Assembly (NCBI GenBank): GCA_947494695.1
Contig: CANLWB010000009.1
Span: 62,001-126,000, forward strand
Source: an uncultured Flavobacteriaceae bacterium
GTDB taxonomy: Bacteria > Bacteroidota > Bacteroidia > Flavobacteriales > Flavobacteriaceae
Direction: 5' to 3'
Length of the DNA: 64,000 bases
The notes beneath the pieces were generated by a model, which saw only the letters and a program-made list of their open reading frames with translations, searched no databases and was not told the origin of the DNA. Made by a program: the position numbers and the translations under genes. Shown here piece after piece: positions 7,810-61,262 of this stretch; position 1 is the first letter of the stretch, and each line of letters starts with the position of its first letter.

Positions 7810-7900
7810 AATTACAATATTACGATATTATCATGCTTCTTAGAAATTATTGAACTACAAATATTTGAACCTTTAAAAGTGTTTTAATAGCGCACATAAC

Positions 7901-7917
7901 TGTATCGTTTTCGAACA
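7901..7917. promoter_or_regulatory. Putative upstream activator site for the NtrC-type regulator (copy 1)
   Basis: TGTATCGTTTTCGAACA is a partly symmetric 17-mer with TGT and ACA ends. It lies in the 205-bp divergent gap between the regulator and the MacA-like gene. It matches the site at 39413-39429 at 15 of 17 positions, plus flanking bases, and shares the ends of the near-perfect dyad at 39392-39408. It ends 53 bp before a TGGCAC element, a normal enhancer distance for sigma-54 activators. The role is inferred from repetition and position. Confidence 0.6.
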
Positions 7918-7970
7918 CCTAAAAGAATGCTATTCTTTTTAAGTGATTGACTTTTAAATACTTACATTAA

Positions 7971-7986
7971 TGGCACGGTAATCTAT
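7971..7986 (+). promoter_or_regulatory. Putative sigma-54-type -24 element before the ABC export array
   Basis: TGGCACGGTAAT at 7971-7982 fits the -24 half of a sigma-54 promoter (TGGCAC), 44 bp before the MacA-like ATG. The canonical -12 GC is absent at the expected spot (TCTAT at 7982-7986), so this is a half match. The same TGGCACG occurs at 39482-39488 with almost the same distances to the dyad and to the start codon, which strengthens the call. Confidence 0.5.
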
Positions 7987-8014: not shown

Positions 8015-9262
8015 ATGGACATACCTTTAGAAAAGAAGCGATTTAACAAGAAAACGATAAGTCTTATTGTTGGCATCACCTTAATTATAGCATTAATTAT
8101 TTTTGTTATGGTTTCCACGGGTGGAAAATCTAAGTTAAACGTTGAGGCCGAACGTATTTCGATTAGTGAGATTAAACGCGGGGTTTTTCAAGAAAACATT
8201 CCAGTTACCGGAGTTGTTATGCCAATTACCACCATTTATTTAGATGCCCTTGAAGGTGGGCGTGTAGATGAAAAATTTGTTGAAGACGGTGCTATAATGA
8301 AACAAGGAGAGCCTATTCTACGTCTTTCTAATACGGACTTAGAATTAAGCTTGGTAAATCAGGAAACCTCAGTTTATAATTTATTAACGCAAATGCAAAT
8401 TTCACAAAACGCGGCAAGACAAAATACGATTAATAAGTTAACTAGAATGACCGATGTAAAAAACGCTTTGATTGAGGCTGAGCGTGTTTACGAGCTAAAT
8501 AAAAAATTGCAAGCGCAAAACGCTATTGGGACACAGGAATTCAAAGAGTCTGAGAATAATTACAATAACCAAAAACAACAAATGGAGTTGGCAGAACAAA
8601 TTCTTATTGAAGATTCCATTGCAGTAAAACAAGAAACAAATCAAATAAAAAGCTCTTTTGCAAGAACACAAAGTGCGTTAAAATTAATGCGAAAAAAAGT
8701 AGGCGATTTAGTTGTGAGGGCTCCTGTAGATGGGCAATTAACATCACTTGATGCAGAAATTGGCCAGTCAAAAACTAAAGGAGAGCGCCTGGGACAAATA
8801 GATGTGCTAAGTGGTTTTAAAGTACGTGCTGATATTGATGAACATTATATTTCAAGAATTTACACAGGACAGCAAGGTACTTTTGAATTCAATGGTCAAA
8901 CACATGTTTTAACCATTAAAAAAGTATTTACTCAAGTTACCAATGGCAGGTTTCAGGTTGATATGTTGTTTGACAAAAAAGTAGAAGGTATTCGTCGTGG
9001 ACAGTCCTTACAAATTCGCTTAGCTTTAAGTCAGGAAAAACAAGCCGTTTTAGTGCCTAAAGGTGGTTTTTTCCAAAAAACCGGAGGGAATTGGATTTTT
9101 AAATTAAATGAGGAGGGTACATTGGCATATAAAGTAGATATTCAATTGGGAACAAAAAACACGCAATATTACGAAGTTTTAGAGGGCTTGTCACCCGGAG
9201 ATAAAGTCATAACTTCTAGCTATGATAATTTTGGAGATAAACAAGAATTAGTTTTAAAGTAA
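8015..9262 (+). CDS. MacA/HlyD-family periplasmic adaptor (membrane fusion) protein
   Basis: 415 residues. One N-terminal membrane helix (about 14-36) places the rest in the periplasm. A barrel-sandwich half (GGRVDEKFVEDGAIMKQGEP) is followed by a Gln/Asn-rich alpha-helical hairpin (about 115-225), then the second half of the lipoyl-like fold (VVRAPVDGQLTSLDAEIGQ) and the beta-barrel and membrane-proximal domains. In MacAB-TolC systems such a protein bridges the MacB permease and TolC. It is the first gene of the array and the only adaptor in the window, so it would have to serve several permeases. Confidence 0.93.
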   Translation: MDIPLEKKRFNKKTISLIVGITLIIALIIFVMVSTGGKSKLNVEAERISISEIKRGVFQENIPVTGVVMPITTIYLDALEGGRVDEKFVEDGAIMKQGEPILRLSNTDLELSLVNQETSVYNLLTQMQISQNAARQNTINKLTRMTDVKNALIEAERVYELNKKLQAQNAIGTQEFKESENNYNNQKQQMELAEQILIEDSIAVKQETNQIKSSFARTQSALKLMRKKVGDLVVRAPVDGQLTSLDAEIGQSKTKGERLGQIDVLSGFKVRADIDEHYISRIYTGQQGTFEFNGQTHVLTIKKVFTQVTNGRFQVDMLFDKKVEGIRRGQSLQIRLALSQEKQAVLVPKGGFFQKTGGNWIFKLNEEGTLAYKVDIQLGTKNTQYYEVLEGLSPGDKVITSSYDNFGDKQELVLK

Positions 9263-9393
9263 CAAATAGATATATATACCATCATTATAAAGGAAACCTA
9301 ACCAACACAATGGCATTACATTAATAATTCAAAAAAATATAGATTGCTACCGTGCTCCTCCTTGTAATGATAAAAAATTAAAAAGATTCAACA

Positions 9394-10071
9394 ATGATAA
9401 AAATAACAGATTTAGAAAAATATTATAAAACGGATGAATTGCAAACCATAGCGCTTAACAAGTTGTCCTTTGAGGTTAAAGAAGGGGAATTTGTTGCTAT
9501 TATGGGGCCTTCGGGGTGTGGAAAATCTACCTTGCTTAATATTTTAGGTATGCTAGACGATTCAGATGGCGGTAGCTTTATCTTTAATGGAGAAGAAGTT
9601 ATCGATTATAATGAGCGTAAACGTGCCAATATTCGCAAGCATAACATCGGTTTTGTATTTCAAAGCTTTAATCTAATAGATCAATTGTCTGTTTTCGAAA
9701 ATGTAGAGCTGCCATTAATATACACCGGGGTAAAAAAAGGAGAGCGCAAAAAACGTGTGGAAGAGGTGTTAGAAAAAATGCAGATTATGCACAGACGCAA
9801 GCACTTTCCGCAACAATTATCGGGAGGACAGCAACAACGTGTAGCCGTAGCAAGAGCCGTGGTAAATAATCCGAAGTTAATACTCGCAGATGAGCCTACG
9901 GGAAACTTAGATAGCAGTAATGGTAATGAGGTTATGGACTTGCTAACGGAGTTAAATTCTCAAGGTACGACCATAGTTATGGTAACGCATAGTGAACACG
10001 ATGCCAAATTTACACATCGTATTATTAGGATGTTGGATGGACAAAAAGTAGCAGAAAACACTTTAGTATAA
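9394..10071 (+). CDS. ABC transporter ATPase, MacB/LolD type (ATPase 1)
   Basis: 225 residues, a lone nucleotide-binding domain. Walker A is GPSGCGKS (38-45), the Q-loop FVFQSFN, the signature LSGGQQQR (142-149), Walker B LILADEP with Glu167, D-loop GNLDS, and the switch His199 (VTHSE). All catalytic parts are present, so it should be active. It sits between the adaptor and the first permease. The permeases of the array lack their own ATPase domain, so this protein, or ATPase 2 at 39.5 kb, must power them. Confidence 0.95.
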   Translation: MIKITDLEKYYKTDELQTIALNKLSFEVKEGEFVAIMGPSGCGKSTLLNILGMLDDSDGGSFIFNGEEVIDYNERKRANIRKHNIGFVFQSFNLIDQLSVFENVELPLIYTGVKKGERKKRVEEVLEKMQIMHRRKHFPQQLSGGQQQRVAVARAVVNNPKLILADEPTGNLDSSNGNEVMDLLTELNSQGTTIVMVTHSEHDAKFTHRIIRMLDGQKVAENTLV

Positions 10072-10142
10072 AGAACTAGTTTAACATTTTCTATTGAAAT
10101 GTATCACAAATAATTTTTAACCACAACTATCATATCTAACAT

Positions 10143-12611
10143 ATGAAATCGCATTTTCTAAAATCTATAATGAGAAGCATTATAAACAAGACGTTTTTGT
10201 CACTGGCTAAAATTTCGGGACTTGCGCTAGGGTTTGCTGTTTTTATATTTTTAACAGTAAAAATTCAGTATGAGAACAGTTATGATGAGTTTTGGATAGA
10301 TTCCGAAGATGTTTATAGAGTTGCATTAGATGTCAAATATGCCAATGGTGAAGAAGTTTTATCCGCTAAAAACTTTGGTGGTGCTTCAGAGCTATTAGAT
10401 TTAGAATTACCAGAAGTTATTAGTTATTGTAATTTAGGTAAAGACGTCGTAACTATTTTTAACGGTTCAAAACAAAAAATACAAGATGTAAATTTTATCT
10501 ATACCGACCCTACGTTTTTTGATGTTTTTAAAAGGAAGATTATAAAATCTGAAAGCACCAAACTTTTAGAAAACATTCATGGTGTTGCGATTTCTGAATC
10601 CTTTGCCAAAAAGTTATTTGGAAATGAAGACCCTATCAATAAAGAACTTACGATTAATGAAGGTTGGAAATTTGTTGTAGATGCCGTTTTTGAAGATATT
10701 CCAAGTCATAGCCATATGAAAGTAGATGTTGTGGCTGCTTATAAGTCACTTTTCTATTACATGCAGAATTTTGACAATACCCGTCAAGTCCTAATCAAAA
10801 ACCCGAATTACCAATACCATAAACCAGATCCTTATAGCCAAAGACGTTGGAATACACCAGTACAATACAGACCATACTCTTACATAAAATTGAAAAAAGG
10901 GACACCCATACAAGCGGTTGAATCTAAAGTTGCAGGTTTACTTAGTAAAGTACCATTGCCTTATAGGTTAAAAAAGGGTGATATGAAATTTAAGTTTCAG
11001 CCCATTCATGATATTCATTTAAAGTCAAATTTAAGCCATGAGCAATCCGCCAATGGGAACACAAAGCAAATCCTATTTCTTTATATCATTATAGCCGTAG
11101 TTTTATTTGTATGTGTGATCAATTTTATAAACCTAAATACCATTTCGAATATAGAACAGTTAAAAAACTATTCCATTCGCATATTCAACGGGTCTACTTA
11201 CTGGCAAATTTTCCAAATGATATTAGCAGAAAGCTTTATTTTTAATGGTATTGCTTTATTTATAGCATTGCCCTTAGCTTATGTTTTAATTATTGCAGAA
11301 CTACCCTCGACCAAAGTAGCCCCCTACATATTTTTATCTGTTGTGGCTATTGTTGTCTTGGTGTCTGTTATAGCTGCTCTCATTCCTTTTTTATCAGTGG
11401 TCAAAAATGGTTTTGCCTCAGGATTAAAAATAGGCAAGCAAAAAATAAGTCAAAAATGGAAGTCTCAAAGGGTCATGGTGACTGCTCAATTTTCAATAAC
11501 CATTATATTAATTATTTGCACTACTGGAATTTACAAGCAAATGCAGTTTATGATGGCATCAGATTTGGGGTTTAATGGACAGCAAACCTTGTATAGCTTC
11601 TCCCCTATGACCATGAACCAGCACCCAGATATACCAAATAAACTAAGAACGTTTAGAAATAAATTAGACGCCTTAAGCGACGTAAGCTCCTTTTCGGTAA
11701 GTTCTAGTATACCGGGGCAAAAAGTAAGTCGTCTAAACAATCAAATAAGACCGTTAGGCGTTGCAGAGCCGTTTCCTACCTCTTTTAGTGAAATAAGTAT
11801 TGATGATAATTATATAAAAACTTATGGTATTCATTTGAAAGCAGGTAAAAATTTGAGTGTTCAAAATGATTGGATATCGGATGACATTTTAATCAATGAA
11901 ACGGCATTACCTGCTATGGGAATAGCAAATGCCGTAGATGCTATAGGCCAAGTAATAACTGTTGGAAATAAAAACTGCACCATAGTAGGTGTTATTGAAG
12001 ATTATCACCATGCATCGTTACATACGCCAATAAAACCAAGTATATATACTCAAAACCTACATTGGAATCATAGTGTGGGATATTATTCATTTCAATTGAG
12101 TATTAAGGACATAGACAAAACCATGTCTCAGATTACCCAAATATGGAACGCCTTATATCCTAAAGAAGAATTTATTTATAATTTTTCAGAGGCCTCTTTT
12201 GCAACCCAATATGCAAGAGACCAAAAATTCAATCAAATTTTAACCTACTCCGCATGTTTGGCGCTTTTAATTTCTTGTTTAGGATTGCTTGGTATGGCAT
12301 TGTTTAATATCAAGAAACGTGTAAAAGAAATAGGAATCAGAAAGGTAAGCGGAGCTACCGTAAGTCAGATTATAGTACTACTAAATATAGATTTTTTAAA
12401 GTGGGTTATCATGGCTTACATTATTGCATTACCCATGTCCTGGTATACTATAAATAGATGGTTAGAAGACTTTGCTTATAGAACAAACATGAGCTGGTGG
12501 GTATATGGTTTTGCTGGTTTACTAGCCATAACCATAGCACTTGCAAGTGTAAGCTGGCAAAGTTATAAGGCTGCAACAAATAACCCTGTTGAAGCTCTTA
12601 AAGAAGAATGA
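10143..12611 (+). CDS. Double FtsX/MacB-type ABC permease 1 (divergent)
   Basis: 822 residues. Layout: membrane helix 1 (about 20-41), large periplasmic MacB_PCD-like domain, three membrane helices, a fifth helix (about 445-465), a second periplasmic domain, and three final helices. The second half keeps the FtsX coupling motif KEIGIRKVSGA. In the first half the equivalent stretch reads NYSIRIFNGSTY, so the usual KEVGIRK sequence is lost. The N-terminus (MKSHFLKSIMRS) also differs from the MIRNYFKIAWRNL start of most siblings. It is the most diverged member and lies next to ATPase 1, so it may be the founding partner of the adaptor and ATPase. Confidence 0.9.
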   Translation: MKSHFLKSIMRSIINKTFLSLAKISGLALGFAVFIFLTVKIQYENSYDEFWIDSEDVYRVALDVKYANGEEVLSAKNFGGASELLDLELPEVISYCNLGKDVVTIFNGSKQKIQDVNFIYTDPTFFDVFKRKIIKSESTKLLENIHGVAISESFAKKLFGNEDPINKELTINEGWKFVVDAVFEDIPSHSHMKVDVVAAYKSLFYYMQNFDNTRQVLIKNPNYQYHKPDPYSQRRWNTPVQYRPYSYIKLKKGTPIQAVESKVAGLLSKVPLPYRLKKGDMKFKFQPIHDIHLKSNLSHEQSANGNTKQILFLYIIIAVVLFVCVINFINLNTISNIEQLKNYSIRIFNGSTYWQIFQMILAESFIFNGIALFIALPLAYVLIIAELPSTKVAPYIFLSVVAIVVLVSVIAALIPFLSVVKNGFASGLKIGKQKISQKWKSQRVMVTAQFSITIILIICTTGIYKQMQFMMASDLGFNGQQTLYSFSPMTMNQHPDIPNKLRTFRNKLDALSDVSSFSVSSSIPGQKVSRLNNQIRPLGVAEPFPTSFSEISIDDNYIKTYGIHLKAGKNLSVQNDWISDDILINETALPAMGIANAVDAIGQVITVGNKNCTIVGVIEDYHHASLHTPIKPSIYTQNLHWNHSVGYYSFQLSIKDIDKTMSQITQIWNALYPKEEFIYNFSEASFATQYARDQKFNQILTYSACLALLISCLGLLGMALFNIKKRVKEIGIRKVSGATVSQIIVLLNIDFLKWVIMAYIIALPMSWYTINRWLEDFAYRTNMSWWVYGFAGLLAITIALASVSWQSYKAATNNPVEALKEE

Positions 12612-12683
12612 ATTCATCAATAGAAACTGAAACAGTATTGAAATAAACTCAACCCTTGATCCGGTACAAGAAAACGTACAGTT

Positions 12684-15044
12684 ATGATACGAAACTATTT
12701 TAAAATCGCATGGCGAAATTTGATTAAAAACAAGAGTTTTTCCTTATTAAATATTGCTGGTCTTTCTATAGGCCTAGCAATTGTAATCCTGGTTGCAATA
12801 TGGATTAGTTTCGAGGTTAGTTACGATCAATTTCATGAAAACAAAACTCGTATTTATGAGGTAAATAATCAAGAACTAGTAGATGGAGATATCTGGACCT
12901 GGAATTCTACTCCTAAAATAATGGCATCGGTGATTAAAAAAGATTACCCAGAAGTAGAAAACACAGTTAGATATTTTGATGAGATTTCGTTTCTATTTTC
13001 AATAGGAGACAAAAAAATAAAAACATCGGGTACCATTGTTGATGAAGATTTTTTAAAGGTGTTTAGCTTTCCATTATTAGAAGGTGATAAAACAAGGGCT
13101 TTAAACGGGGTGAATTCGGTTGTGATCACTCAAGACTTAGCAAACAAACTTTTCGATAAAGATAACCCGATCGGACAAGTCTTAAAAATTGATAATACCG
13201 ATACTTTTACCATAACTGGTGTTCTAAAAGACTTACCCCAAAATACAGATTTTAAGTTCGATTTTTTATTACCATGGTCTTATTTAGTTCAAAAAGGCTG
13301 GAATGAAGTGAATTGGAGCAATAACTGCATCACGACCTACGCCAAACTAAAAGCAGGTGTAGATTATTCCAGGTTTTCAAATAAAATTAAAAATCTTCGC
13401 AAAAAGTATGACAAAGCCTCTCCAGAAATGGTCACCTATCTCTACCCCTTTTCGCGTACACATCTATACTCGGAGTTTGAAAATGGTGTGGAAACTGGGG
13501 GAAAAATTGATACGATCAGGATCATTGGTTTTATTGCATTCATCATTCTTATTATTGCCTGTATTAACTTTATGAATTTAAGTACCGCACAAAGCGAAAA
13601 GCGGTCTAAAGAAGTAGGTATACGAAAAGTGGCCGGAGCAAAAAGAAACATGCTCGTTTTTCAATTTCTGGGAGAATCTATGCTTATAACATTTATAGCT
13701 GCCATAGTTGCTTTTTTAATCGTTTTGTTAGTACTTCCTTCGTTTAGTGCTTTTACTAATACCAGTTTATCCTTAAATGTTTCAAATAATTGGTTTTGGC
13801 TTTTTGTTATCGGCATTATATTATTTACTGGATTACTAGCGGGAAGTTATCCGGCCCTATATCTTTCTGGGTTCAAACCGTCTTCTATACTAAAAAAAAC
13901 TTTTAACAAGGTAAATGCCTTAATAACTCCAAGAAAAGTATTGGTTGTGGTACAGTTTTCAATAGCTATAATACTTGTTACAGCTACCTTAACGATTAGA
14001 CAACAGATGGAAAAAGTTCAAAACAGACAATCTGGATATTCTAAGGACAACCTGGTTTACATTAACATAGAAGGCGATATTGAAAAGAATTATTCGCTTA
14101 TTAAAAACGAATTGTTGGCCGCTAATATAGCCACGTCTGTTACCAAAACCAGTGCTCCACTAACAGAGGGTTGGAGTAATTCATGGGACTTTACATGGAA
14201 AGGAAAAGATCCTAATAACAAAACACTGGTGCAAAGGTTTGTTGCAGATGAGGCCATTATAAAAACAGCTGGTTTAAAGCTCATTACCGGTCGCGATTTC
14301 GACTTAAACATGTATCCTACAGATTCTTCAGCGGTAATTATTAATGAAGCAGCAGTAAAGCTTATGGGGTTTAAGACTCCTATTGGTCAAATTATAAAAG
14401 ATAATGGTATGGACTGGCACGTTATTGGGGTGGTTAAAGATTTTGTATTGCAATCTCCTTTTCAGGATGTGGCTCCTATGGTTATTGAGGGAGCAAAAGG
14501 CTTTTTTAATGTTATTCATGTCAAGTTTGCCACCATCCATACACTATCAGAGAATTTATCTAAAACAGAAACCATATTCAAGAGGTTTAATTCAGAATAC
14601 CCTTTTGATTATCAATTTATTGATAAGGCCTATGCAAAAAAATTTGATGACCTAAAGAAAATGGAAAACCTGGTTAGCATTTTAACCTTGCTTACTATTA
14701 TTATTTCATGTTTAGGGTTATTTGGTTTAGCAAGTTATATGGCCCAAAATAGAACTAAGGAAATAGGTGTTAGAAAAATATTGGGGGCTTCCATTAGTCA
14801 TATTTCATACTTACTTACTAAGGAGTTTTTAAAACCTATAATCGTTGCTTTTATTGTCGGGTTTCCACTGGCATGGCACTTTATGAATCGATGGTTAGAG
14901 ACTTTTACCTATAGAATAACTATGTCCTGGTGGGTATTTGCTATATCGGCCTTTTTAATACTGTGTATTGCCTCTGTAACCGTGAGTTATCAATCAATGA
15001 AAGCAGCTATAACTAATCCGGCAAATAGTTTAAGAGCAGAGTAA
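12684..15044 (+). CDS. Double FtsX/MacB-type ABC permease 2
   Basis: 786 residues, with the eight-helix, two-periplasmic-domain layout. It starts with MIRNYFKIAWRNL. Both cytoplasmic coupling motifs are intact: KEVGIRKVAGA (about residue 308) and KEIGVRKILGA near the C-terminus. It ends NPANSLRAE. The second periplasmic domain (SAPLTEGWSN, GRDFDLN, TPIGQII) looks closest to permease 11 at the far end of the array. No ATPase domain is present. The 72-bp spacer before it carries a diverged copy of the array spacer sequence. Confidence 0.93.
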   Translation: MIRNYFKIAWRNLIKNKSFSLLNIAGLSIGLAIVILVAIWISFEVSYDQFHENKTRIYEVNNQELVDGDIWTWNSTPKIMASVIKKDYPEVENTVRYFDEISFLFSIGDKKIKTSGTIVDEDFLKVFSFPLLEGDKTRALNGVNSVVITQDLANKLFDKDNPIGQVLKIDNTDTFTITGVLKDLPQNTDFKFDFLLPWSYLVQKGWNEVNWSNNCITTYAKLKAGVDYSRFSNKIKNLRKKYDKASPEMVTYLYPFSRTHLYSEFENGVETGGKIDTIRIIGFIAFIILIIACINFMNLSTAQSEKRSKEVGIRKVAGAKRNMLVFQFLGESMLITFIAAIVAFLIVLLVLPSFSAFTNTSLSLNVSNNWFWLFVIGIILFTGLLAGSYPALYLSGFKPSSILKKTFNKVNALITPRKVLVVVQFSIAIILVTATLTIRQQMEKVQNRQSGYSKDNLVYINIEGDIEKNYSLIKNELLAANIATSVTKTSAPLTEGWSNSWDFTWKGKDPNNKTLVQRFVADEAIIKTAGLKLITGRDFDLNMYPTDSSAVIINEAAVKLMGFKTPIGQIIKDNGMDWHVIGVVKDFVLQSPFQDVAPMVIEGAKGFFNVIHVKFATIHTLSENLSKTETIFKRFNSEYPFDYQFIDKAYAKKFDDLKKMENLVSILTLLTIIISCLGLFGLASYMAQNRTKEIGVRKILGASISHISYLLTKEFLKPIIVAFIVGFPLAWHFMNRWLETFTYRITMSWWVFAISAFLILCIASVTVSYQSMKAAITNPANSLRAE

Positions 15045-15066
15045 ATCATCATCAATCAAAAAAACC

Positions 15067-17442: not shown

Positions 17443-17470
17443 AGCGCATTCATCAAAAAATGAACAGATC

Positions 17471-19900: not shown

Positions 19901-19915
19901 AAAATATTTGAAACT

Positions 19916-22327: not shown

Positions 22328-22375
22328 AATCATCAATAGGTACTGAAATAAATTTAGTGCAAAAAACGAATAATC
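22328..22375. repeat. Array spacer repeat with conserved hairpin (copy A)
   Basis: This 48-bp spacer between permeases 5 and 6 is nearly the same as the spacer at 28733-28779 (about 5 differences in 47). It includes a dyad TACTGAA (22341-22347), loop ATAAA, TTTAGTG (22353-22359). As RNA, the two changes relative to the other copy still pair as U-G and G-U. It is either a relic of the duplication unit or a conserved RNA element in the operon. Confidence 0.6.
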
Positions 22376-24808: not shown

Positions 24809-24842
24809 ATCAAAAAAACATCATCAATCAAACTCAAGAACA

Positions 24843-25622
24843 ATGAAATCAACAAGATTATTAAAAAAACCGGTAGTTAGAAGCCTAAAAAACATGGTAT
24901 TTACATGCTTAGTCTTAATAGGAATGAGCGCACTGGGGCAATCAAAAGCTATTGCTATAGACCACTTCGAAAAAGTAATCATCAGCCCACATATACAAGT
25001 CACTTTTGTAGAGGGCGACGCAGAATCTGTAACTGTTGTATCTAATAAAGTCTCCAATGACAAGTTAAATATCGAGGTAGTAGGACAAACACTCCACATG
25101 TATTTGGATGGTGCGAAGGTCATTTCAAAATCTAAAAAGTATAACGATGAGCATCGGAATCGGAAGCGTTCCGTGTATCAAGGTACCATTGTTACTGCAA
25201 CGGTAACCTATAAATCAATTTATGACCTTTCGCTAAGAGGTGATGAGACCTACGTTTTTAAAGATCCCTTCGAAAGTGACCTCTTAAGGTTAAAAATTTA
25301 TGGTGAGTCTAAAACATATTTTAACCATGTGGACATAGAACATTTAAATACAACCTTATACGGTGAAAGTTATTTAGAAATAAAAAAAGGTAGTGTCATT
25401 AAGCACAAGATGAAGTGTTATGGAGCGTGTAAAATACATATTGATGGTATTAAAAATGCAGATTCAAAGGTAACGGCATTTGGTGAGGGAACCTATAATT
25501 TAAATGTTTCAGACTACCTCAAAGTAACAGCTTATGGAGAAGCTATTGTGAACTATAAAGGAAGTCCGGAAGTCACTAAAGGCATTATATTAGGAGAAGC
25601 CAAGATTAAGAAAATTAATTAG
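24843..25622 (+). CDS. Secreted GIN-domain (DUF2807-type) beta-helix protein
   Basis: 259 residues. A signal-peptide-like stretch (about 18-34, ending ALGQS) points to export; Met18 (position 24894) is a possible alternative start that would give a shorter, more typical signal. The body has the 'head GIN' pattern: FEKVIISPHIQVTFVEGD, then beta-rich rungs, each with a Tyr/Phe-Gly-Glu-like turn (YGESKTY, YGESYLE, YGACKIH, FGEGTYN, YGEAIVN, LGEAKIK), as in right-handed beta-helices of DUF2807. Function unknown; such proteins are envelope-located in Bacteroidota. Its place between permeases 6 and 7 on the same strand suggests it is co-expressed with the exporter. Confidence 0.8.
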   Translation: MKSTRLLKKPVVRSLKNMVFTCLVLIGMSALGQSKAIAIDHFEKVIISPHIQVTFVEGDAESVTVVSNKVSNDKLNIEVVGQTLHMYLDGAKVISKSKKYNDEHRNRKRSVYQGTIVTATVTYKSIYDLSLRGDETYVFKDPFESDLLRLKIYGESKTYFNHVDIEHLNTTLYGESYLEIKKGSVIKHKMKCYGACKIHIDGIKNADSKVTAFGEGTYNLNVSDYLKVTAYGEAIVNYKGSPEVTKGIILGEAKIKKIN

Positions 25623-25624
25623 TT

Positions 25625-26284
25625 ATGAAAACGTATCTTACTTTTAACTCACTTCTACTTTTTCTATGCATACAAGGAGCTTCCTATGCGCAAAAATATA
25701 ATCTTATAGAGGCTTTTAAAGCTAACGAAATCAAAACTATAAATAGACAGATCTCGATTGATTCTACAGAGTCTAATGCATTATTCATGAATGCCAAAAA
25801 AGGAGATGGTTTAGGGGTACTTAAAAGCCTATCATTTTCAAAAGGTTCTATCGAAATAGACATCGCTGGAAAAGATTTGCCTGGCAGAAGTTTTGTAGGG
25901 ATTGCGTTCAATATAAAGAACGATTCAACCTATGAAGCTGTTTATTTTCGTCCCTTCAATTTTATGGCAGAACAACAAATAAGAAAAAGCCATATGGTAC
26001 AGTATATAAGTCATCCCGAACATACTTGGCATAAACTAAGAAAAGAAAGAACCGACCAATTTGAAAATGAATTAACACAACCACCAAAACCTAACGATTG
26101 GTTTCATGTAAAAATAATGCTAAGTGAAAAATCGGTTAAAGTGTTTGTAAACGAAAACAAAGAAAAACCCGATTTAGTTGTGGAAAGATTAGCTGTATCA
26201 GAGTCTGATAAAATAGGATTATGGACAGGAAACAATGCCTTTGGACGGTTTAAAAGTTTAACCATAATTAAAGATAGAAAATAA
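25625..26284 (+). CDS. Exported concanavalin/LamG-like protein of unknown function
   Basis: 219 residues with a clear signal peptide (1-22, ending SYAQ). The mature part is beta-rich: GSIEIDIAGKDLPGRSFVGIAFNIKND, VYFRPFNF, DWFHVKIMLSEKSVKVFVN, then KIGLWTGNNAFGRFKSLTI. This order is typical of concanavalin-like jelly-roll folds such as DUF1080 or LamG domains, which bind or cut glycans. No catalytic residues can be assigned. It starts 2 bp after the GIN-domain gene and ends 15 bp before permease 7, so it is clearly part of the operon. Confidence 0.75.
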   Translation: MKTYLTFNSLLLFLCIQGASYAQKYNLIEAFKANEIKTINRQISIDSTESNALFMNAKKGDGLGVLKSLSFSKGSIEIDIAGKDLPGRSFVGIAFNIKNDSTYEAVYFRPFNFMAEQQIRKSHMVQYISHPEHTWHKLRKERTDQFENELTQPPKPNDWFHVKIMLSEKSVKVFVNENKEKPDLVVERLAVSESDKIGLWTGNNAFGRFKSLTIIKDRK

Positions 26285-26299
26285 CCAATTAGTGTAATC

Positions 26300-28732: not shown

Positions 28733-28779
28733 ATCATCAATAGATACTGAAATAAATTCAGTACAAAAAACGAACAATA
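28733..28779. repeat. Array spacer repeat with perfect hairpin (copy B)
   Basis: The 47-bp spacer between permeases 7 and 8 is the sister of 22328-22375. The dyad here is perfect: TACTGAA (28745-28751), loop ATAAA, TTCAGTA (28757-28763). A shortened version without the hairpin lies at 31195-31216 (ATCATC directly joined to AAAAAACGAATAGTC), and a diverged one at 12612-12683. There is no T-run, so it is not a standard terminator. Confidence 0.6.
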
Positions 28780-31194: not shown

Positions 31195-31216
31195 TATCAT
31201 CAAAAAACGAATAGTC

Positions 31217-33652: not shown

Positions 33653-33694
33653 AAAAAAAAAAATCAAAATAGATCTTTCAAAACAATAATTATT

Positions 33695-34516
33695 ATGCAC
33701 AACTACAAAAGACTTTTATGTTTTATAACCGTAACGCTTTTAAGCGTATCTTATATGGCAACAGCTCAGCAAAATAAGTATGAAGTTAAAGACTCCATTT
33801 TTTCTAAAACATTGAATGAACATAGAAATTACAGAGTCATTTTACCTGCTGATTATTACCCAACTTCGGATAAAAAACATGATGTTATTTATGTCTTAGA
33901 TGGTGAAACGGTTGTTAATGTGGTGTCTCCAACTCACAAAATTGCATCCGATTGGGGAGTGATTCCAAGATGTATCATTGTTGGAATAGATAATAAGTTT
34001 AATGATGGCATAGTGATGCGTGACAGAGATCTATTGCCAACACACGACAAACGCGCTCCTCTATCTGGAAAGGCAGATAATTACATAAAATTTATAAAAG
34101 AGGAATTAATGCCTCATATTAATAAAACATATGCAACATCAGATCGCAATATACTTTTTGGGCACTCTCATGGTGGCACCTTCACTATTTACAGCATGTT
34201 AAAAGCTCCCAATCTGTTTAGCGCTTATATAGCAGCAGATCCATCGCTGTGGTGGGATGAAAGGTATGTCATTAAACAGGCAAAAGAAACCTTGCCTAAT
34301 CTGTTAAATTTAGATGCAAAACTGTTTATAAGTGGTCGAGAAGGTATGCCGTACAGAGGTATGGGTATTGAAGCTATAGAACACGTTTTAAAAGAGAGTT
34401 CACCTAATAACCTCTATTGGAAAGGCATAGCTTATAAAAATGAAACGCACATTACTATTTTGTTAAAAACCATTTACGACGGATTGAAATTTATTTATCC
34501 GAATTATAAAAAATAG
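33695..34516 (+). CDS. Exported alpha/beta-hydrolase, putative esterase (Fes/esterase D type)
   Basis: 273 residues, signal peptide about 1-25 (ending ATAQQ). Alpha/beta-hydrolase fold of the putative-esterase family (PF00756): RNYRVILPADYYP, VIYVLDGE, the nucleophile elbow GHSHGG with Ser158, AADPSLWWDE, and a C-terminal ETHIT with probable catalytic His252. Relatives include ferri-siderophore and feruloyl esterases, so cleavage of an ester in an exported or imported small molecule is possible. It lies between permeases 9 and 10, 6 bp before the latter. It may process or resist the substrate handled by the exporter (inference). Confidence 0.85.
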   Translation: MHNYKRLLCFITVTLLSVSYMATAQQNKYEVKDSIFSKTLNEHRNYRVILPADYYPTSDKKHDVIYVLDGETVVNVVSPTHKIASDWGVIPRCIIVGIDNKFNDGIVMRDRDLLPTHDKRAPLSGKADNYIKFIKEELMPHINKTYATSDRNILFGHSHGGTFTIYSMLKAPNLFSAYIAADPSLWWDERYVIKQAKETLPNLLNLDAKLFISGREGMPYRGMGIEAIEHVLKESSPNNLYWKGIAYKNETHITILLKTIYDGLKFIYPNYKK

Positions 34517-34522
34517 AACGCT

Positions 34523-36961: not shown

Positions 36962-36984
36962 TGCAATGTCAAAACACTAACACT

Positions 36985-39375
36985 ATGATTAAAAATTATT
37001 TCAAAATAGCCTGGAGAAACCTTTTAAAGAGCAAAGGGTATACTTTGATAAATATAGGTGGATTAGCCCTAGGAATGGCCATAGTACTTCTTATAAGTTT
37101 GTGGGTATATGATGAGCTCACTTTTAATCAAAGCCATGATAATTATAACGACATAGCCCAGGTTATGTCCCGCAAAACACGTAACGGTAAAAAAGCCATT
37201 CGTTACGCTATGCCTTATCCGATAGGTGACGAATTAAGAGCAAAATATGGGGAGGATTTTAAGCATGTGGTCATGAGTTCGTTTCATGGGGATAATGTTT
37301 TGGCTATAGACGATAAAAAACTTTCCAGACGCGGTGGGTTTATGGAACCTGGAGCGCTTAGTATGCTTTCATTAGATATGATTTACGGTGATTGGGAAGG
37401 CTTAAATGATCCGAATTCTATTGTGATTTCCGAATCGACTGCCAAGTCGTTTTTCGGAGAAGATAATCCGCTAGGCAACACCATGAGAATAGCTAATAAA
37501 CTTGATGTTTTAGTAACGGGTGTCTATAAAGATATGCCTTATAATACAACTTTTAAGGATCTTGATTTTATAGTGCCATGGGCTTTATACGCTTTGTCTT
37601 TTCCATGGGTAAAAGAAGCTAAAGACAACAACCTGTGGGGCAATAATTCTTATCAATTATTTGTACAAATAGCTGAAGGAAAAACAATGACTGCCGTTAC
37701 AAATACCATTAAAAATACCATATTAAACAACATCCCAGAATACGGCAAGAGAGAGAAGCCGGAACTTGTGTTGCACCCAATGAAGGATTGGCATTTGCGA
37801 TCAGACTGGAAAGATGGGTTTAATGCTGGAGGCTTTATTCAATATGTATGGTTATTTGGTGTGGTCGGGTTGTTTGTACTGCTTTTGGCTTGTATTAATT
37901 TTATGAATCTAAGTACGGCACAGTCGGAAAAACGGGCTAAAGAAGTTGGGATAAGAAAAACAGTAGGCTCCTCTAAATATCAATTGATCAATCAGTTTTT
38001 AAGCGAATCATTTTTAGTGGTACTCATGGCGTTTGTATTAGCAGCATGTTTGGTGTTTTTAGCGATGCCATCGTTTAATGACATGGCAGATAAACAAATT
38101 GTATTCCCGTTTAAGAGTGTCACTTTTTGGTTAGCTAGTCTCGTTTTTATAACGATCACGAGTCTTTTGGCAGGGAGCTATCCTGCGTTGTATTTGTCGG
38201 CTTTTCGTCCTGTTAAAGTTCTAAAAGGTACTTTTAAATCGGGAAAATCAACGACATCATTTAGACAAGCATTGGTAGTGGTTCAATTTACGGTTTCTGT
38301 CATATTGGTTATAGGGACTATAGTTGTTGAAAAACAAATAGATTATTCTAAAAACAGACCCATTGGTTATGAAATGAATGGTCTGGTAATGATTGAAAAA
38401 ACCACTGAGGATTATGAAGGTAAATACAATATCATGCGCAATGACCTTATAAGTAGTGGAGCCGTAGTAGACATGGCAGAATCCTCAAGTCCTTTAACAG
38501 ATGTTTGGAGTACAAATAGCGGATTTGAATGGGAAGGCAAATCACCCGATTTTATTACAAACATAGCCACGGTTTCTGTTTCACACGATTATGGAAAAAC
38601 GATAGATTGGGATGTAGTAGAAGGGCGTGATTTTTCGAGAACATTTGCAACCGATTCTACAGCTTTCATTCTTAATGAAACTGCCGTGAAATATATGGAT
38701 TTAAAAACCCCCATAGGTAAAATAATTAGATGGAATAATCAAGAACATCAAGTCATTGGAACGGTTAAAGATATTTTAGCCGTATCGCCTTTTGAGCCCG
38801 TGCTACCAACCGTTTACATGATTAAGTATTTCAATACCAATTGGATAAATTTAAAACTCCATCCAAGCCAAAGTACATCTACATCTTTAGCAACCATAAA
38901 AACCATTTTATCAAAACATGCTCCCAATGTTCCGTTTGAATACCAGTTTGTTGATAACACCTTTGCAGAAAAATTTGAGGCTGTAGAACGTATTAGAAAG
39001 CTATCAACCATATTTGCAATTTTTGCCATTTTCATTAGTTGTCTAGGGCTCTTTGGTTTGGCTTCTTTTATTGCAGAACAGCGTACCAAAGAAATTGGAA
39101 TTCGGAAAGTCGTAGGTGCGTCGGTATTTAGCCTATGGCAGTTATTGTCTAAAGGTTTTGTAAAGCTGGTAGTGCTTGCCATTTTGGTGGCAACACCTCT
39201 TGCTTATTATGGTGTTAGCCAATGGTTGAACAATTACACATACAGAACCGAGGTATCTTGGTGGGTTTTTGCCATAGCTTGTATAGGTGCCATAGGCATT
39301 ACATTGTTAACGGTAAGTTTTCAAGCTATAAAAGTGGCTGTTGCGAACCCTATAAAGAGTTTAAGAACCGAATAA
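36985..39375 (+). CDS. Double FtsX/MacB-type ABC permease 11
   Basis: 796 residues from the ATG at 36985, which gives MIKNYFKIAWRNL in register with the other permeases. An upstream in-frame ATG at 36961, overlapping the previous stop, would add eight residues (MQCQNTNT) not found in siblings. Motifs KEVGIRKTVGS and KEIGIRKVVGA are intact; it ends NPIKSLRTE. Its second periplasmic domain (SSPLTDVWS, GRDFSRT, TPIGKII) resembles permease 2. It is the last gene before the second regulated promoter. Confidence 0.92.
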   Translation: MIKNYFKIAWRNLLKSKGYTLINIGGLALGMAIVLLISLWVYDELTFNQSHDNYNDIAQVMSRKTRNGKKAIRYAMPYPIGDELRAKYGEDFKHVVMSSFHGDNVLAIDDKKLSRRGGFMEPGALSMLSLDMIYGDWEGLNDPNSIVISESTAKSFFGEDNPLGNTMRIANKLDVLVTGVYKDMPYNTTFKDLDFIVPWALYALSFPWVKEAKDNNLWGNNSYQLFVQIAEGKTMTAVTNTIKNTILNNIPEYGKREKPELVLHPMKDWHLRSDWKDGFNAGGFIQYVWLFGVVGLFVLLLACINFMNLSTAQSEKRAKEVGIRKTVGSSKYQLINQFLSESFLVVLMAFVLAACLVFLAMPSFNDMADKQIVFPFKSVTFWLASLVFITITSLLAGSYPALYLSAFRPVKVLKGTFKSGKSTTSFRQALVVVQFTVSVILVIGTIVVEKQIDYSKNRPIGYEMNGLVMIEKTTEDYEGKYNIMRNDLISSGAVVDMAESSSPLTDVWSTNSGFEWEGKSPDFITNIATVSVSHDYGKTIDWDVVEGRDFSRTFATDSTAFILNETAVKYMDLKTPIGKIIRWNNQEHQVIGTVKDILAVSPFEPVLPTVYMIKYFNTNWINLKLHPSQSTSTSLATIKTILSKHAPNVPFEYQFVDNTFAEKFEAVERIRKLSTIFAIFAIFISCLGLFGLASFIAEQRTKEIGIRKVVGASVFSLWQLLSKGFVKLVVLAILVATPLAYYGVSQWLNNYTYRTEVSWWVFAIACIGAIGITLLTVSFQAIKVAVANPIKSLRTE

Positions 39376-39391
39376 AACCTAAGATATAAAG

Positions 39392-39408
39392 TGTTCTATT
39401 ATAGAACA
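39392..39408. promoter_or_regulatory. Near-perfect dyad, putative activator site (copy 2a)
   Basis: TGTTCTATTATAGAACA is symmetric apart from its central base pair region. It lies 17 bp after permease 11 and 21 bp (two helical turns, centre to centre) before a second related site at 39413-39429. Such paired, phased dyads are typical for NtrC-family dimers that form oligomers. It could instead act as part of a terminator for the long upstream transcript, but no T-run follows. Confidence 0.6.
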
Positions 39409-39412
39409 GTGC

Positions 39413-39429
39413 TGTATCAATTTCGAACA
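39413..39429. promoter_or_regulatory. Putative activator site (copy 2b), matching copy 1
   Basis: TGTATCAATTTCGAACA differs from the 7901-7917 site at only two of 17 positions, and flanking C and CAC are also shared. It ends 52 bp before TGGCACG at 39482 (copy 1: 53 bp). The conserved arrangement in two otherwise unrelated intergenic regions is good evidence for a functional regulator site. Confidence 0.65.
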
Positions 39430-39481
39430 CACCAGCATGCAAACTCTACCATAAACACCTATTTATCAGACTATTAAATAA

Positions 39482-39497
39482 TGGCACGATATTAAAG
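39482..39497 (+). promoter_or_regulatory. Putative sigma-54-type -24 element before ATPase 2 / TolC
   Basis: TGGCACGATATT at 39482-39493 lies 41 bp before the ATPase 2 start. The -24 half (TGGCAC) is perfect. The -12 GC dinucleotide is not present at the expected spacing, as also at 7971. Shared with the other promoter: TGGCACG-R-TA-W-T. Confidence 0.5.
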
Positions 39498-39522
39498 ACA
39501 ATTTAAATAAAACACATAAATA

Positions 39523-40191
39523 ATGATATTACAACTCAAAAATATATTTAAATGGGTGAACTCTGGTGGAAATAGGGTGTTCCTATTAAATGATATAGAT
39601 TTTACCGTTAATGAAGGAGAATTTATTTCTATCATGGGACCATCGGGTTCTGGTAAAACTACATTGCTCAATGTTATCGGCATGTTGGATAATTTCAATG
39701 AAGGTGAGTATACGTTTTTAGATGAATCTGTACATGACTTAAAAGAAAAACATAGAGCTAATTTATATAAAGAATACATCGGGTTTGTATTTCAGTCTTA
39801 TCATTTAATTGATGAGTTGACAGTTTATGAAAACATAGAAACGCCTTTATTATATAAGAAACACAGTAGGTCTGAACGAAAAGCTATGGTCGCCGATATG
39901 TTAGATCGATTTAATATTGTAGGCAAGAAAGATTTGTTTCCGTCGCAATTAAGTGGTGGGCAACAACAATTGGTAGGCATAGCAAGAGCTTTGGTTTCCA
40001 GTCCAAAACTCATATTGGCAGACGAACCAACTGGTAATCTAAATTCAGCACAAGGCGAAGAGATTATGCAATTGTTTAAAAAGCTGAATGAAGAAGGCGT
40101 TACCATTATTCAAGTTACGCATTCTGAATCCAATGCAACTTACGGTTCACGAACCATCCATCTTAAAGATGGTTTGATAGTCAATAATTGA
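39523..40191 (+). CDS. ABC transporter ATPase, MacB/LolD type (ATPase 2, altered motifs)
   Basis: 222 residues. Walker A GPSGSGKT (39-46), Q-loop FVFQSYH, Walker B LILADEP with Glu168, and switch His200 (VTHSE) are present. Two positions differ from the family norm and from ATPase 1: the residue after the signature LSGGQQQ is Leu150 instead of Arg, and the D-loop reads GNLNS instead of GNLDS (Asp to Asn). It might be slower, asymmetric or a partner in a heterodimer with ATPase 1 (inference). It is followed 15 bp later by the TolC-like gene and has its own regulated promoter. Confidence 0.93.
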   Translation: MILQLKNIFKWVNSGGNRVFLLNDIDFTVNEGEFISIMGPSGSGKTTLLNVIGMLDNFNEGEYTFLDESVHDLKEKHRANLYKEYIGFVFQSYHLIDELTVYENIETPLLYKKHSRSERKAMVADMLDRFNIVGKKDLFPSQLSGGQQQLVGIARALVSSPKLILADEPTGNLNSAQGEEIMQLFKKLNEEGVTIIQVTHSESNATYGSRTIHLKDGLIVNN

Positions 40192-40206
40192 TTTCGAAAC
40201 ATACTT

Positions 40207-41631
40207 ATGATTAAAAGAATACTACTATTAAGTGTTTGGGGACTATATACATGCTTAGGGTTTAGTCAAGACGAGGTACAACCAAAATTTACTTTAGAGG
40301 CATGTATTGCAATGGCTATTGAAAACAACTTAGACTTAAAAGGTGCCGAATTAAGAAAGCGATCGTCCAAAATAAACTATAAACAATCTGTAAACGCATT
40401 ACTGCCAAATCTAAATGCAAATTACAATTTGGGTGTTAATGATGGGCGTAGTATAGACCCTTTTACCAATAGCTATATAAATAGAGAATTAACGTTTTCT
40501 AACTTTGGGATGGACTTGCGACTCACTGTTTTTAGTGGCTTTAGAGTTTTAAATAGTATTAAGCAGAATAAGTTTAATATGAAGGCCGCCGAAATGGAAG
40601 CCGAGGAAGCCAAACAAAACCTAATTTTAGACGTAACGATTGGATATATACAAATATTAAATAGTCGAGATCGGATCGCACTTTTAAAAACCAGACTGAA
40701 TACTACCAAAGTCCAATTAAAGCGACTAGAAACCAATTACAAAGAGGGCGTTGGAAACCCTGCCGATTACACAGACATGAAAGGTCAATACGCTTTGGAT
40801 CAATCGGCAATCATTGAAGCTGAAAACAATTTTAAATCGGCCGTATTGGATTTCGCAAGGTTGTTAAACCTGAAAGACCAATCGGAAAAACAGTTTAACA
40901 ACATCTCAGGCCTAATCAATTCTGAAAAGTATCAACTTTCGGCAAGCGATGTCTATCATGACGCCCTACAAAACCTGGCGACTTTCAAATCCAGACAGTT
41001 AAGGATTGATGCTGCTCATAAAGGTATAAAAGTGGCTAGAGCGAATTATTTACCGGAGGTGTCGCTTTTCGGACAGTTAAACACCAATTATTCAAGTTTG
41101 GCAGAAACATTTACAGAAACGGGTTCCAACATCTTAGAAACCGGGGATTTTGTAACCATTAACAATCAAGATTTTCCAGTACTTCAAAATAAAACAGAAT
41201 TTGAAGGCCATAAAATAAACTACATGGATCAGTTTGATAATAACCTAAATACCGTTGTAGGTGTATCGGTGCAAATGCCATTATTTAATGGGTTTAGAGC
41301 AAAAAACGATGTGAAACTTAAAAAAATTCAATTGGAAGAAACCAAATTAGAACTCCAAAACACAAAACTACTCTTTAAGCAATCCATAAAACAGGCGCAT
41401 AACACTATGGAAGCCGCCTTTAGCAGATATCATATTTTATTGGATCAAGTGGCTGCATTTGAAGAATCATATCGTATAAACGAGGTTAGATTTAATAGTG
41501 GCGTGTCCAATATCGTAAACTACATAGTGAGTAAAAACAACTTGGATAATTCCAGACTTAATTTGAATAGAGCGAAATATGAGTACTTGCTACGTGTTAA
41601 AGTGCTCGATTTTTATAGAGGAATTTATTAA
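40207..41631 (+). CDS. TolC-family outer membrane efflux protein
   Basis: 474 residues, signal peptide about 1-20 (ending LGFSQ). Two outer-membrane-efflux repeats are visible: the first opens with FTLEACIAMAIENNLDLKGAELRKRSS, the second with LATFKSRQLRIDAAHKGIKVARANYLPEVSLFGQL. Long amphipathic helices rich in Asn/Gln/Lys and a MPLFNGFRAKNDVKLK strand fit the TolC barrel and tunnel. This would be the exit duct for the adaptor and permease complexes of the array. It is the last gene of the exporter locus; the next gene is convergent. Confidence 0.93.
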   Translation: MIKRILLLSVWGLYTCLGFSQDEVQPKFTLEACIAMAIENNLDLKGAELRKRSSKINYKQSVNALLPNLNANYNLGVNDGRSIDPFTNSYINRELTFSNFGMDLRLTVFSGFRVLNSIKQNKFNMKAAEMEAEEAKQNLILDVTIGYIQILNSRDRIALLKTRLNTTKVQLKRLETNYKEGVGNPADYTDMKGQYALDQSAIIEAENNFKSAVLDFARLLNLKDQSEKQFNNISGLINSEKYQLSASDVYHDALQNLATFKSRQLRIDAAHKGIKVARANYLPEVSLFGQLNTNYSSLAETFTETGSNILETGDFVTINNQDFPVLQNKTEFEGHKINYMDQFDNNLNTVVGVSVQMPLFNGFRAKNDVKLKKIQLEETKLELQNTKLLFKQSIKQAHNTMEAAFSRYHILLDQVAAFEESYRINEVRFNSGVSNIVNYIVSKNNLDNSRLNLNRAKYEYLLRVKVLDFYRGIY

Positions 41632-43557: not shown

Positions 43558-43611
43558 TGTTTTTTTAGAGTTTTATGGAAGAAACAGATTTATCAAGCAT
43601 TTAGCTTGCCA

Positions 43612-51277: not shown

Positions 51278-51288
51278 AATTACTGGGT

Positions 51289-52206: not shown

Positions 52207-52236
52207 ATTTCTGTTTTTTTATTTGTCTTCCTTATT

Positions 52237-55518: not shown

Positions 55519-55525
55519 GATTATT

Positions 55526-58502: not shown

Positions 58503-58569
58503 GTATTATAGTTTTAAGTATTCATGTGATTTACTGACCTTTAACATCTTTGAAATTATGTAAACCGTA

Positions 58570-59112: not shown

Positions 59113-59114
59113 AG

Positions 59115-59585: not shown

Positions 59586-59620
59586 TTGTATTGTGGTTTG
59601 TTATTATGAATGGTTATTTA

Positions 59621-60187: not shown

Positions 60188-60197
60188 AATATTTTAA

Positions 60198-60731: not shown

Positions 60732-60733
60732 AG

Positions 60734-61204: not shown

Positions 61205-61221
61205 ACCGTGTGTATCTTTAA

Positions 61222-61253
61222 AAACTGAGGAGCATATATGAACTCCTCAGTTT
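61222..61253 (-). terminator. Strong hairpin with T-run after DUF2589 copy A
   Basis: Perfect 11-bp stem, AAACTGAGGAG (61222-61232) with CTCCTCAGTTT (61243-61253), and a 10-nt loop. On the minus strand the right arm runs into TTTTT, so it is a good intrinsic terminator for the gene at 61263-61829. Because the downstream operon starts only 18 bp later, it may be a partial terminator that sets copy A to be expressed more than the rest. Confidence 0.8.
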
Positions 61254-61262
61254 AGAGTTAAT

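Follow-up and report, generated by a model that had tools for sequence, protein, structure and literature searches.

The 64,000 nt window analysed here (positions 62,001 to 126,000 of contig CANLWB010000009.1, GenBank assembly GCA_947494695.1) comes from the 5.49 Mb genome of an uncultured Flavobacteriaceae bacterium, labelled G000 among the genomes compared. It contains eleven intact double FtsX/MacB permeases (P1 to P11; 786–822 aa) in a single run (10143–39375, + strand), with a periplasmic adaptor and an ATPase (ATPase1) on the 5′ side, and a second ATPase (ATPase2) and a TolC-type channel on the 3′ side. We read this array as a regulated export panel whose permeases share a motor, an interpretation that we place just on the probable side. 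An earlier description made from the sequence alone (the original prediction) had named every one of these parts, and each was found in its place; its idea of a common energy and exit module serving many different heads is reasonable, and is supported by comparative genomics, with 3–27 permeases per frame and few matching ATPases. Three new elements stand out as the most informative: the altered second ATPase, an intramembrane-type kinase and a copied regulator site. The original prediction had mentioned neither the two-component system, nor the three secreted genes within the run, nor the putative regulator-site and −24 copies before the adaptor and ATPase2.

Permeases, ATPases and control elements

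All eleven permeases of the window gave a PF12704 match above cut-off in a scan of their own genome, and the three scanned against Pfam (P1, P2 and P11) all show a pair of MacB_PCD and a pair of FtsX stretches. Mean hydropathy over 255 full-length permeases places eight membrane segments, in agreement with the AlphaFold2 model of P6 (the one permease modelled; pLDDT 84.7), which has eight transmembrane (TM) segments and two periplasmic domains. The best solved match to this model in Foldseek is E. coli YbbAP (9ge6, E 8.5e-19, TM-score 0.48 by query), followed by MacB, LolCDE, BceAB and HrtBA, and P6 as modelled has the features of a type VII ATP-binding cassette (ABC) transporter, namely the FtsX-type TM fold and, in each half, a periplasmic domain inserted between TM1 and TM2. 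ATPase genes flank 30 of the arrays that we mapped, and the coupling-helix residues are conserved in both halves, with G337, R721 and G725 present in all 255 permeases, E329 in 237 and E717 in 250. The data strongly suggest that every permease makes up a whole pseudo-dimeric transmembrane unit by itself; each has two coupling helices but lacks its own ATPase, so that all would depend on the same one or two ATPases.

There are many more permeases than matching ATPases, and a shared motor is therefore the best reading of these counts. The genome richest in permeases (G035) has 46 double-permease matches versus four ATPases that match the ATPase2 profile at E <= 1e-50; the window genome likewise has four such ATPases. 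Four genomes from other Bacteroidota families have 26–30 permease matches (a few of them fragments, some dispersed) versus three or four such ATPases, of which one scores 334–350 bits (ATPase2-type) and one 266–278 bits (ATPase1-type by score). Conservation points the same way: among the frame proteins, to which the comparison was confined, the ATPases vary least within the genus (ATPase1 91–99%, ATPase2 82–97%, adaptor 78–94%, TolC 65–88%, histidine kinase 67–86%, response regulator 76–80%).

The second ATPase goes with the permeases. In the family, 25 of 120 genomes have a single copy of it (threshold 1e-100; best 24 candidates per genome), and in the phylum 77 of 392 genomes have a single ATPase2-like match (1e-95; best seven candidates per genome). 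At least three permeases are present in 24 of the 25 family genomes with ATPase2 versus two of the 95 without it (G033 and G037; 24/1/2/93, p = 7e-22, a value overstated by kinship among the genomes). Upstream of ATPase2, at least one permease lies in the same-strand run at 77 of 80 fetched loci, and four or five lie within 10 kb at 67 of them.

ATPase2 is also a distinct lineage. The motif ADEPTGNLNS occurs in all 80 ATPase2 genes fetched by profile, and the D-loop residue in 20 more distant ATPase2 regions is Asn (6) or His (14). A tree of 189 ATPases has a branch with support 1.0 that divides 131 sequences (122 unique) from 58 Asp-type sequences with no misplaced tip; every member of the clade of 131 has Asn or His in the D-loop, and its LSGGQQQ is followed by Leu, Ile or Val. 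This clade retains an intact Walker A motif and catalytic Glu throughout, as do both ATPases of the window. Exchange of the D-loop aspartate for alanine in TAP1 turns the pump into a facilitator, according to passages of PMC4242082. An ATPase1-type match was found in all 11 checked genomes that have ATPase2, ATPase1 occurs without ATPase2 at eight loci, and the two genes adjoin in three of the 20 distant regions (G413, G466 and G173). An asymmetric ATPase1–ATPase2 motor, which we propose, fits these sequence comparisons but is not demonstrated by them.

The array may also be regulated. A histidine kinase (HK) and a sigma-54 enhancer-binding response regulator (RR) are encoded divergently from the adaptor, and these two genes, both absent from the original prediction, lend indirect support to its suggestion of a stress response. 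Two dyads before the adaptor are followed, 52–53 bp on, by TGGCAC or a variant in all 11 frames scanned (nine of the genus and two others), the pattern having been derived from these same loci. At up to three mismatches the dyad pattern has one site in the genome, and its reversed control has none; the diverged copy before ATPase2 was missed at this setting and found by eye and then by script, and other diverged sites are possible. The genome encodes RpoN as well as the enhancer-binding regulator. Judged against the −24/−12 promoter consensus of sigma-54, a generic scan was at chance level (24 versus 23.3 sites), as were sigma-70 and terminator scans; the comparison among relatives alone proved informative.

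Intramembrane-sensing kinases such as BceS have two TM helices and a very short extracytoplasmic linker. By hydropathy, the kinases of these frames have two TM helices with a linker of 1–14 residues in 37 of 38 cases (12 residues in the window), a single segment being found in the remaining one. BceS needs its type VII transporter for activation (PMC10314905, in part), and because of this dependence and the BceS-like topology we propose that the kinase may sense permease activity. For Bacteroidia, sigma-54 control of FtsX-like permeases was predicted in a 2025 survey (PMC12316311, in part).

Arrays in related genomes and how they diversify

A profile search at E <= 1e-40 across 11 relatives of the same genus gave 13 permeases in G011, 11 in G006, ten in G002, nine in G005 (six in the main array), seven in G004, five each in G003 and G008, four in G010, three in G009 and none in G001 and G007. 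The window genome has 12, one of them outside the array; an unlinked pair of a double permease and an ATPase (L028, on contig C18) was seen in the same genome. Permease matches at E <= 1e-60 occur in 38 of the 120 family genomes (best eight candidates per genome scored; 13 of the 120 counted in full), and full counts in ten of these genomes are 46, 15, 13, 12, 10, 9, 9, 9, 8 and 7. We mapped 44 regions, selected for having permease matches. In 30 arrays, those in which the script placed both ATPases, 3–27 permeases lie between ATPase1 and ATPase2, and a 31st array (G115) has two; in 27 of the 30 no opposing open reading frame (ORF) of more than 200 aa interrupts this stretch. Because the largest run has 27 permeases (G035) and runs of 15 and 13 also occur, the view that eleven is exceptionally large was wrong in degree. 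Ten or more is nonetheless not routine in related genomes, being reached in four of the 12 genomes of the genus (the window genome included) and in at least seven of the 120 of the family.

Smaller loci were seen as well. Two small frames (L056, and L136 in G115) have two permeases yet both ATPases, and loci in six genera (L129 and L131–L135) consist of an adaptor, ATPase1 and a single permease, with no adjoining ATPase2 or TolC; the HK/regulator pair is present at five of these six. The single-permease loci are possibly an ancestral or a reduced state.

At 45% identity the 255 permeases form 56 subfamilies, of which 23 have a single member. Two types are frequent in the 31 regions with ATPase2: C0, the type of P11, occurs in 28, and C1, that of P6, in 21. 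Gene order is shuffled, six compared arrays sharing 0–4 adjacencies; four genomes of the genus (G000, G002, G006 and G011) have pairwise 7–8 subfamilies in common but only 2–4 adjacencies. The permeases of the window are not recent copies of one another, since their median pairwise identity is 31.6% (55 pairs; closest pair P5–P9, 68%). As the original prediction had it, the membrane parts are conserved and the periplasmic parts differ, with medians over these pairs of 42% for the membrane part and 25% and 24% for the first and second periplasmic domains.

Between orthologues in three close genomes (n=21 pairs), by contrast, median identity is 89% for the membrane part, and 88% and 85% for the periplasmic domains. 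The ratio of non-synonymous to synonymous substitution (omega; NG86 method, synonymous divergence (dS) being saturated for many genes) is 0.04–0.12 for the nine window permeases that have a comparable relative; P5 could be compared only with a 68% relative, and P2 and P8 had no relative to compare. Non-synonymous divergence (dN) is far below the proportion of synonymous differences (pS) in the periplasmic domains too. From these omega values and the identities between orthologues it follows that the periplasmic heads are under purifying selection.

Some permeases have probably moved between species. P9 has a dS of 0.17 to its copy in G002 and 0.16 to that in G006, and P4 a dS of 0.21 to G006, versus 0.91–2.50 for the frame genes between the same genomes; P3, at 0.33–0.58, lies in between. 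For P9 and P4, identity drops close to the gene edges and is uneven in parts of the interior. Given the low dS relative to the frame genes and the fall in identity at the gene edges, whole-gene exchange is the simplest reading for these two genes. A domain-wise nearest-neighbour test gave no support to swapping of periplasmic heads between subfamilies: the nearest relative belongs to the same subfamily in 230 of 232 cases by membrane part and in 232 of 232 by either periplasmic domain, in a test biased towards agreement by subfamilies having been defined on whole proteins. Of all pairs, 135 were flagged as chimera-like, and the 20 inspected are within-subfamily pairs with more diverged periplasmic parts. 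On these comparisons the modularity is one of whole genes, not of domains. The idea of a combinatorial system thus stands for whole genes, in the different subsets and orders and the apparent exchange of P4 and P9, and is not supported for domain shuffling.

Two other routes to such arrays were considered. Simple tandem amplification was rejected, since the seven arrays summarised have median within-array identities of 30–33%; local expansion is clearest in G011, with three P9-like genes, and in G086 and G035, with six and four genes of subfamily C14. Conserved gene ends serving as recombination arms were not favoured either, the excess of codon identity being mostly slight: end codon identity exceeds what the amino acids alone would give in all seven arrays (in the window 0.58 versus 0.53 at 5′ ends and 0.51 versus 0.45 at 3′ ends), with the largest excess at the 3′ ends in G111 (0.54 versus 0.37). 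A hairpin-like sequence of the type TACTGAA-ATAAA-TTCAGTA is repeated in the inter-permease spacers at 22341–22359 and 28745–28763, and G011 has a near-identical spacer; such spacers were a weak lead on the array and were not retained.

Proposed mechanism and competing explanations

In the mechanism that we favour, the intramembrane-type kinase would detect trouble in the envelope, probably by sensing permease activity in the manner of Bce modules; the sigma-54 enhancer-binding regulator would bind the paired dyads before the adaptor and before ATPase2. The layout suggests that adaptor, ATPase1, eleven permeases, three secreted accessory proteins, ATPase2 and TolC would be switched on jointly. 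ATPase1 would work alone in loci with one or two permeases and, in arrays, with ATPase2 as an asymmetric pair. By analogy with known type VII systems, ATP-driven periplasmic clamping would lift a compound from the periplasm or the inner-membrane surface into the adaptor and TolC; alternatively, the compound may be handed to a periplasmic partner such as the esterase. On the comparisons above, permeases are kept as whole genes by purifying selection and some appear to have moved between species, so that each strain would hold its own subset of a large permease pool. A more specific proposal, which we regard as unlikely as a whole, is that of a sigma-54-controlled Gram-negative counterpart of Bce modules, in which an asymmetric motor of ATPase1 and the D-loop-altered ATPase2 would serve dozens of interchangeable permeases that act as exporters and at the same time make up one kinase's sensory panel, which strains would tune by whole-gene trade.

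If the permeases do share one motor pair, the arrays, with as many as 27 permeases flanked by a pair of ATPase genes, would represent extreme subunit sharing among ABC systems, and a single natural system would be open to tests of docking specificity, of flux sensing and of asymmetry in ATP hydrolysis. ATPase2, with its altered D-loop, would be a natural experiment on the role of the D-loop aspartate, and the arrays a readable record of bacteria mixing and trading export or defence functions.

We consider the array to be a new variant of the type VII (MacB/YbbAP/Bce-like) ABC systems. It shares with MacAB-TolC the adaptor, TolC, and the MacB_PCD and FtsX permease domains. MacB, a half-size permease that carries its ATPase as a fused domain, dimerises, whereas the window permeases are pre-fused doubles, eleven in number, with ATPases encoded by separate genes; scores fell short of the MacAB equivalog cut-offs (PRK11578, 25.1 of 342 bits; PRK10535, 45.8, 46.3 and 36 of 966 for P1, P2 and P11). 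The DarBCDE darobactin exporters provide the best NCBIfam matches of the adaptor and both ATPases, and the DarB model also matches the permeases, behind ADOP, at scores below the equivalog cut-offs (DarB 111.6–160.1 of 700 for three permeases, DarC 170.6 of 450, DarD 301.1 and 250.3 of 375 bits); unlike those exporters, the window has many permeases and a second ATPase lineage. The ADOP family (TIGR03434), the best NCBIfam match of P1, P2 and P11, likewise comprises internally duplicated permeases without a fused ATPase, but the window permeases are flanked by two ATPase genes and the three scanned reached 194.8–274.3 bits against a cut-off of 622.3.

BceR-type response regulators are OmpR-type, whereas the window regulator is of the sigma-54 enhancer-binding type; the window also differs from Bce modules in being Gram-negative, with an adaptor and TolC, and in having many permeases per kinase. 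What it shares with them (BceAB-S) is a type VII permease beside a two-TM intramembrane-sensing kinase (PMC10314905 and PMC3023708, both in part). E. coli YbbAP-TesA combines a duplicated permease of approximately 800 aa with a separate ATPase and a secreted esterase partner, and the window array resembles it in the first two and in its putative secreted esterase (passages of PMC12646458). According to the same passages, YbbP has an extra TM pair, the YbbAP complex is 2:1:1 with one ATPase type and TesA is a GDSL esterase; the window, by contrast, has eleven permeases, two ATPase lineages, an adaptor, TolC and an esterase of the PF00756 family. The predicted sigma-54 regulon of Bacteroidia involves the same sigma factor and permease family, but locus architecture, arrays and ATPase lineages are not in the passages available from that survey (PMC12316311). 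RAST annotation named 28 and 33 ADOP copies in Dyadobacter genomes (PMC11573002, in part). Among the literature matches listed, no title or abstract opening described such arrays or permease expansions, subscription papers and preprints lying outside this coverage.

Several observations weigh against a shared motor or its proposed control. ATPases beyond the E <= 1e-50 cut could serve permeases, and both G035 and the window genome have a second ATPase of near-ATPase1 score beside another permease. Permeases occur without ATPase2 in G033 (at least eight matches) and G037 (three), and permeases of types C0 and C1 are also found beside ATPase1 without ATPase2 (G012 and G029), so not every permease needs ATPase2; conversely, no permease was recognised in the stretch fetched around ATPase2 in G277, G316, G320 and G484. 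The difference between N- and C-terminal coupling helices is unchanged by the presence of ATPase2 (median 0.409 in both groups, p = 0.82; n=13 without ATPase2). Permeases outside the frame occur in G003 (one after ATPase2) and G086 (one before ATPase1, one after ATPase2). As for control, the dyad/−24 copy before ATPase2 (spacing 51–52 bp) is present in four of 11 frames, the window included; because the −12 half of the promoter is weak, we can only infer sigma-54 dependence, and the coupling of kinase and transporter is proposed by analogy.

Some of these points would suit two parallel motors, with ATPase1 homodimers driving one permease group, ATPase2 homodimers another, and no mixed pair. 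Both enzymes keep the Walker A motif and catalytic Glu and are encoded at opposite ends of the array, C0 and C1 can accompany ATPase1 alone, the coupling helices give no sign of asymmetry, and ATPase2 stands apart from ATPase1 in four distant genomes. We find this arrangement somewhat unlikely: an ATPase1-type gene accompanies ATPase2 in every genome checked, the two genes can be adjacent even in distant regions, and all 131 ATPase2-lineage sequences on their single branch lack the D-loop Asp, whose loss uncouples TAP (passages of PMC4242082). Most permeases could instead be sensing or mechanical units of an envelope-stress system resembling Bce or FtsEX, with only one or two frequent types (C0 and C1) joining the adaptor and TolC. 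The near-constant intramembrane-type kinase, the prevalence of C0 and C1 against the variability of the others, and the hydrolase and DUF2807 genes recurring inside arrays speak for such a division, which we nevertheless judge unlikely; nearly all full-length permeases have the coupling motifs expected of ATPase-driven units, and contact with the kinase is hypothetical.

That the locus is a parking place, a recombination hotspot collecting permease genes of which many are unused in this host, seems quite improbable. Shuffled order, probable recent single-gene exchanges, the 23 subfamilies that occur once and one split permease (in G131) are what such a hotspot might leave, but all eleven window permeases are intact, omega is low for the nine that could be compared and dN small relative to pS even in periplasmic domains, and opposing ORFs of more than 200 aa between the ATPases are absent from 27 of 30 arrays. 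An ordinary MacAB-TolC antibiotic or drug efflux pump enlarged by simple tandem duplication we regard as very improbable, in spite of the adaptor, TolC and MacB-type permeases in one locus and the few local expansions in relatives (G011, G086 and G035). The window permeases are about 31% alike, ten of the 11 having no array neighbour above 40% (the P5–P9 pair excepted), and most have much closer relatives in other genomes; the MacA and MacB equivalog scores, the double permeases without a fused ATPase and the special second ATPase also point elsewhere. For the window, the subfamily data already contradict a tandem-duplicated ordinary pump, and the shared-motor export panel is the reading that we retain.

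Coordinates and other features of the window

The features of the locus are given in Table 1. The conserved start of P11 is an internal Met at residue 9 of the ORF. The three non-permease genes within the run all encode an apparent signal peptide. P7 lies directly 3′ of the DUF2807 gene, the lectin-like gene or both in G000, G002, G006 and G011, and DUF2807 and alpha/beta-hydrolase genes are also found inside arrays of other genera. The lectin-like protein gave no Pfam family above cut-off, and its AlphaFold2 model (pLDDT 69, from four sequences) matches CBM66 and GH16-type folds in Foldseek.

Table 1. Genes and putative control elements of the permease array (positions in the window)
Feature	Position	Strand	Remarks
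HK	5106..6473	-	PF02518; two predicted TM segments, 12-residue linker (hydropathy)
Sigma-54 enhancer-binding RR	6463..7809	-	PF00072 receiver, PF00158 Sigma54_activat, PF02954 Fis HTH
Putative regulator binding site, two imperfect GTGT-N11-ACAC dyads	7879..7918	+	Similar sequence 5′ of adaptor in relatives
−24-like element TGGCAC	7971..7976	+	53 bp past matched dyad site; −12 element weak
MacA/HlyD-type periplasmic adaptor	8015..9262	+	TIGR01730 127.8 bits (cut-off 94.9)
ATPase1, canonical (LSGGQQQRVA, D-loop NLDS)	9394..10071	+	
Permease P1	10143..12611	+	PF12704 + PF02687
Permease P2	12684..15044	+	PF12704 + PF02687
Permease P3	15067..17442	+	dS 0.33–0.58 to relatives, intermediate
Permease P4	17471..19900	+	dS 0.21 to G006 copy; probably recently exchanged
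Permease P5	19916..22327	+	68% identity to P9
Permease P6, frequent type C1	22376..24808	+	Structure modelled
DUF2807 (head-GIN) protein	24843..25622	+	PF10988 103 bits; apparent signal peptide
Lectin-like protein, 219 aa	25625..26284	+	Predicted ConA/CBM66-type jelly roll; apparent signal peptide
Permease P7	26300..28732	+	
Permease P8	28780..31194	+	
Permease P9	31217..33652	+	dS 0.16–0.17 to G006/G002 copies; probably recently exchanged
Alpha/beta-hydrolase (putative esterase)	33695..34516	+	PF00756 78.9 bits; apparent signal peptide
Permease P10	34523..36961	+	
Permease P11, most frequent type C0	36961..39375	+	ORF overlaps P10 stop by one base
Second putative regulator site, more diverged	39391..39430	+	Before ATPase2
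Second −24-like element TGGCAC	39482..39487	+	52 bp past matched site
ATPase2	39523..40191	+	D-loop Asp to Asn174 (codon 40042–40044); LSGGQQQL
TolC-type outer membrane channel	40207..41631	+	PF02321 192.7 bits

Directly past the array, two large proteins of 559 and 591 aa (41878–45387, − strand) are without a Pfam match. Further on, all on the − strand, a neurotransmitter-gated ion-channel ligand-binding domain (PF02931) at 48212–49288 marks a candidate bacterial pentameric channel, and the stretch 49328–55575 encodes three proteins, one of the PorP/SprF type, one of the OmpA-PD40 type and a legume-lectin protein of 1112 aa that bears a CHU_C type IX signal. A cluster of small proteins (57960–61829, −) includes three, at 58570, 59621 and 61263, that are mutually 28–36% related, and one at 59115 that is weakly related to that at 59621; the two scanned (59115 and 59621) match DUF2589, and unrelated ORFs of 156–180 aa lie in between.

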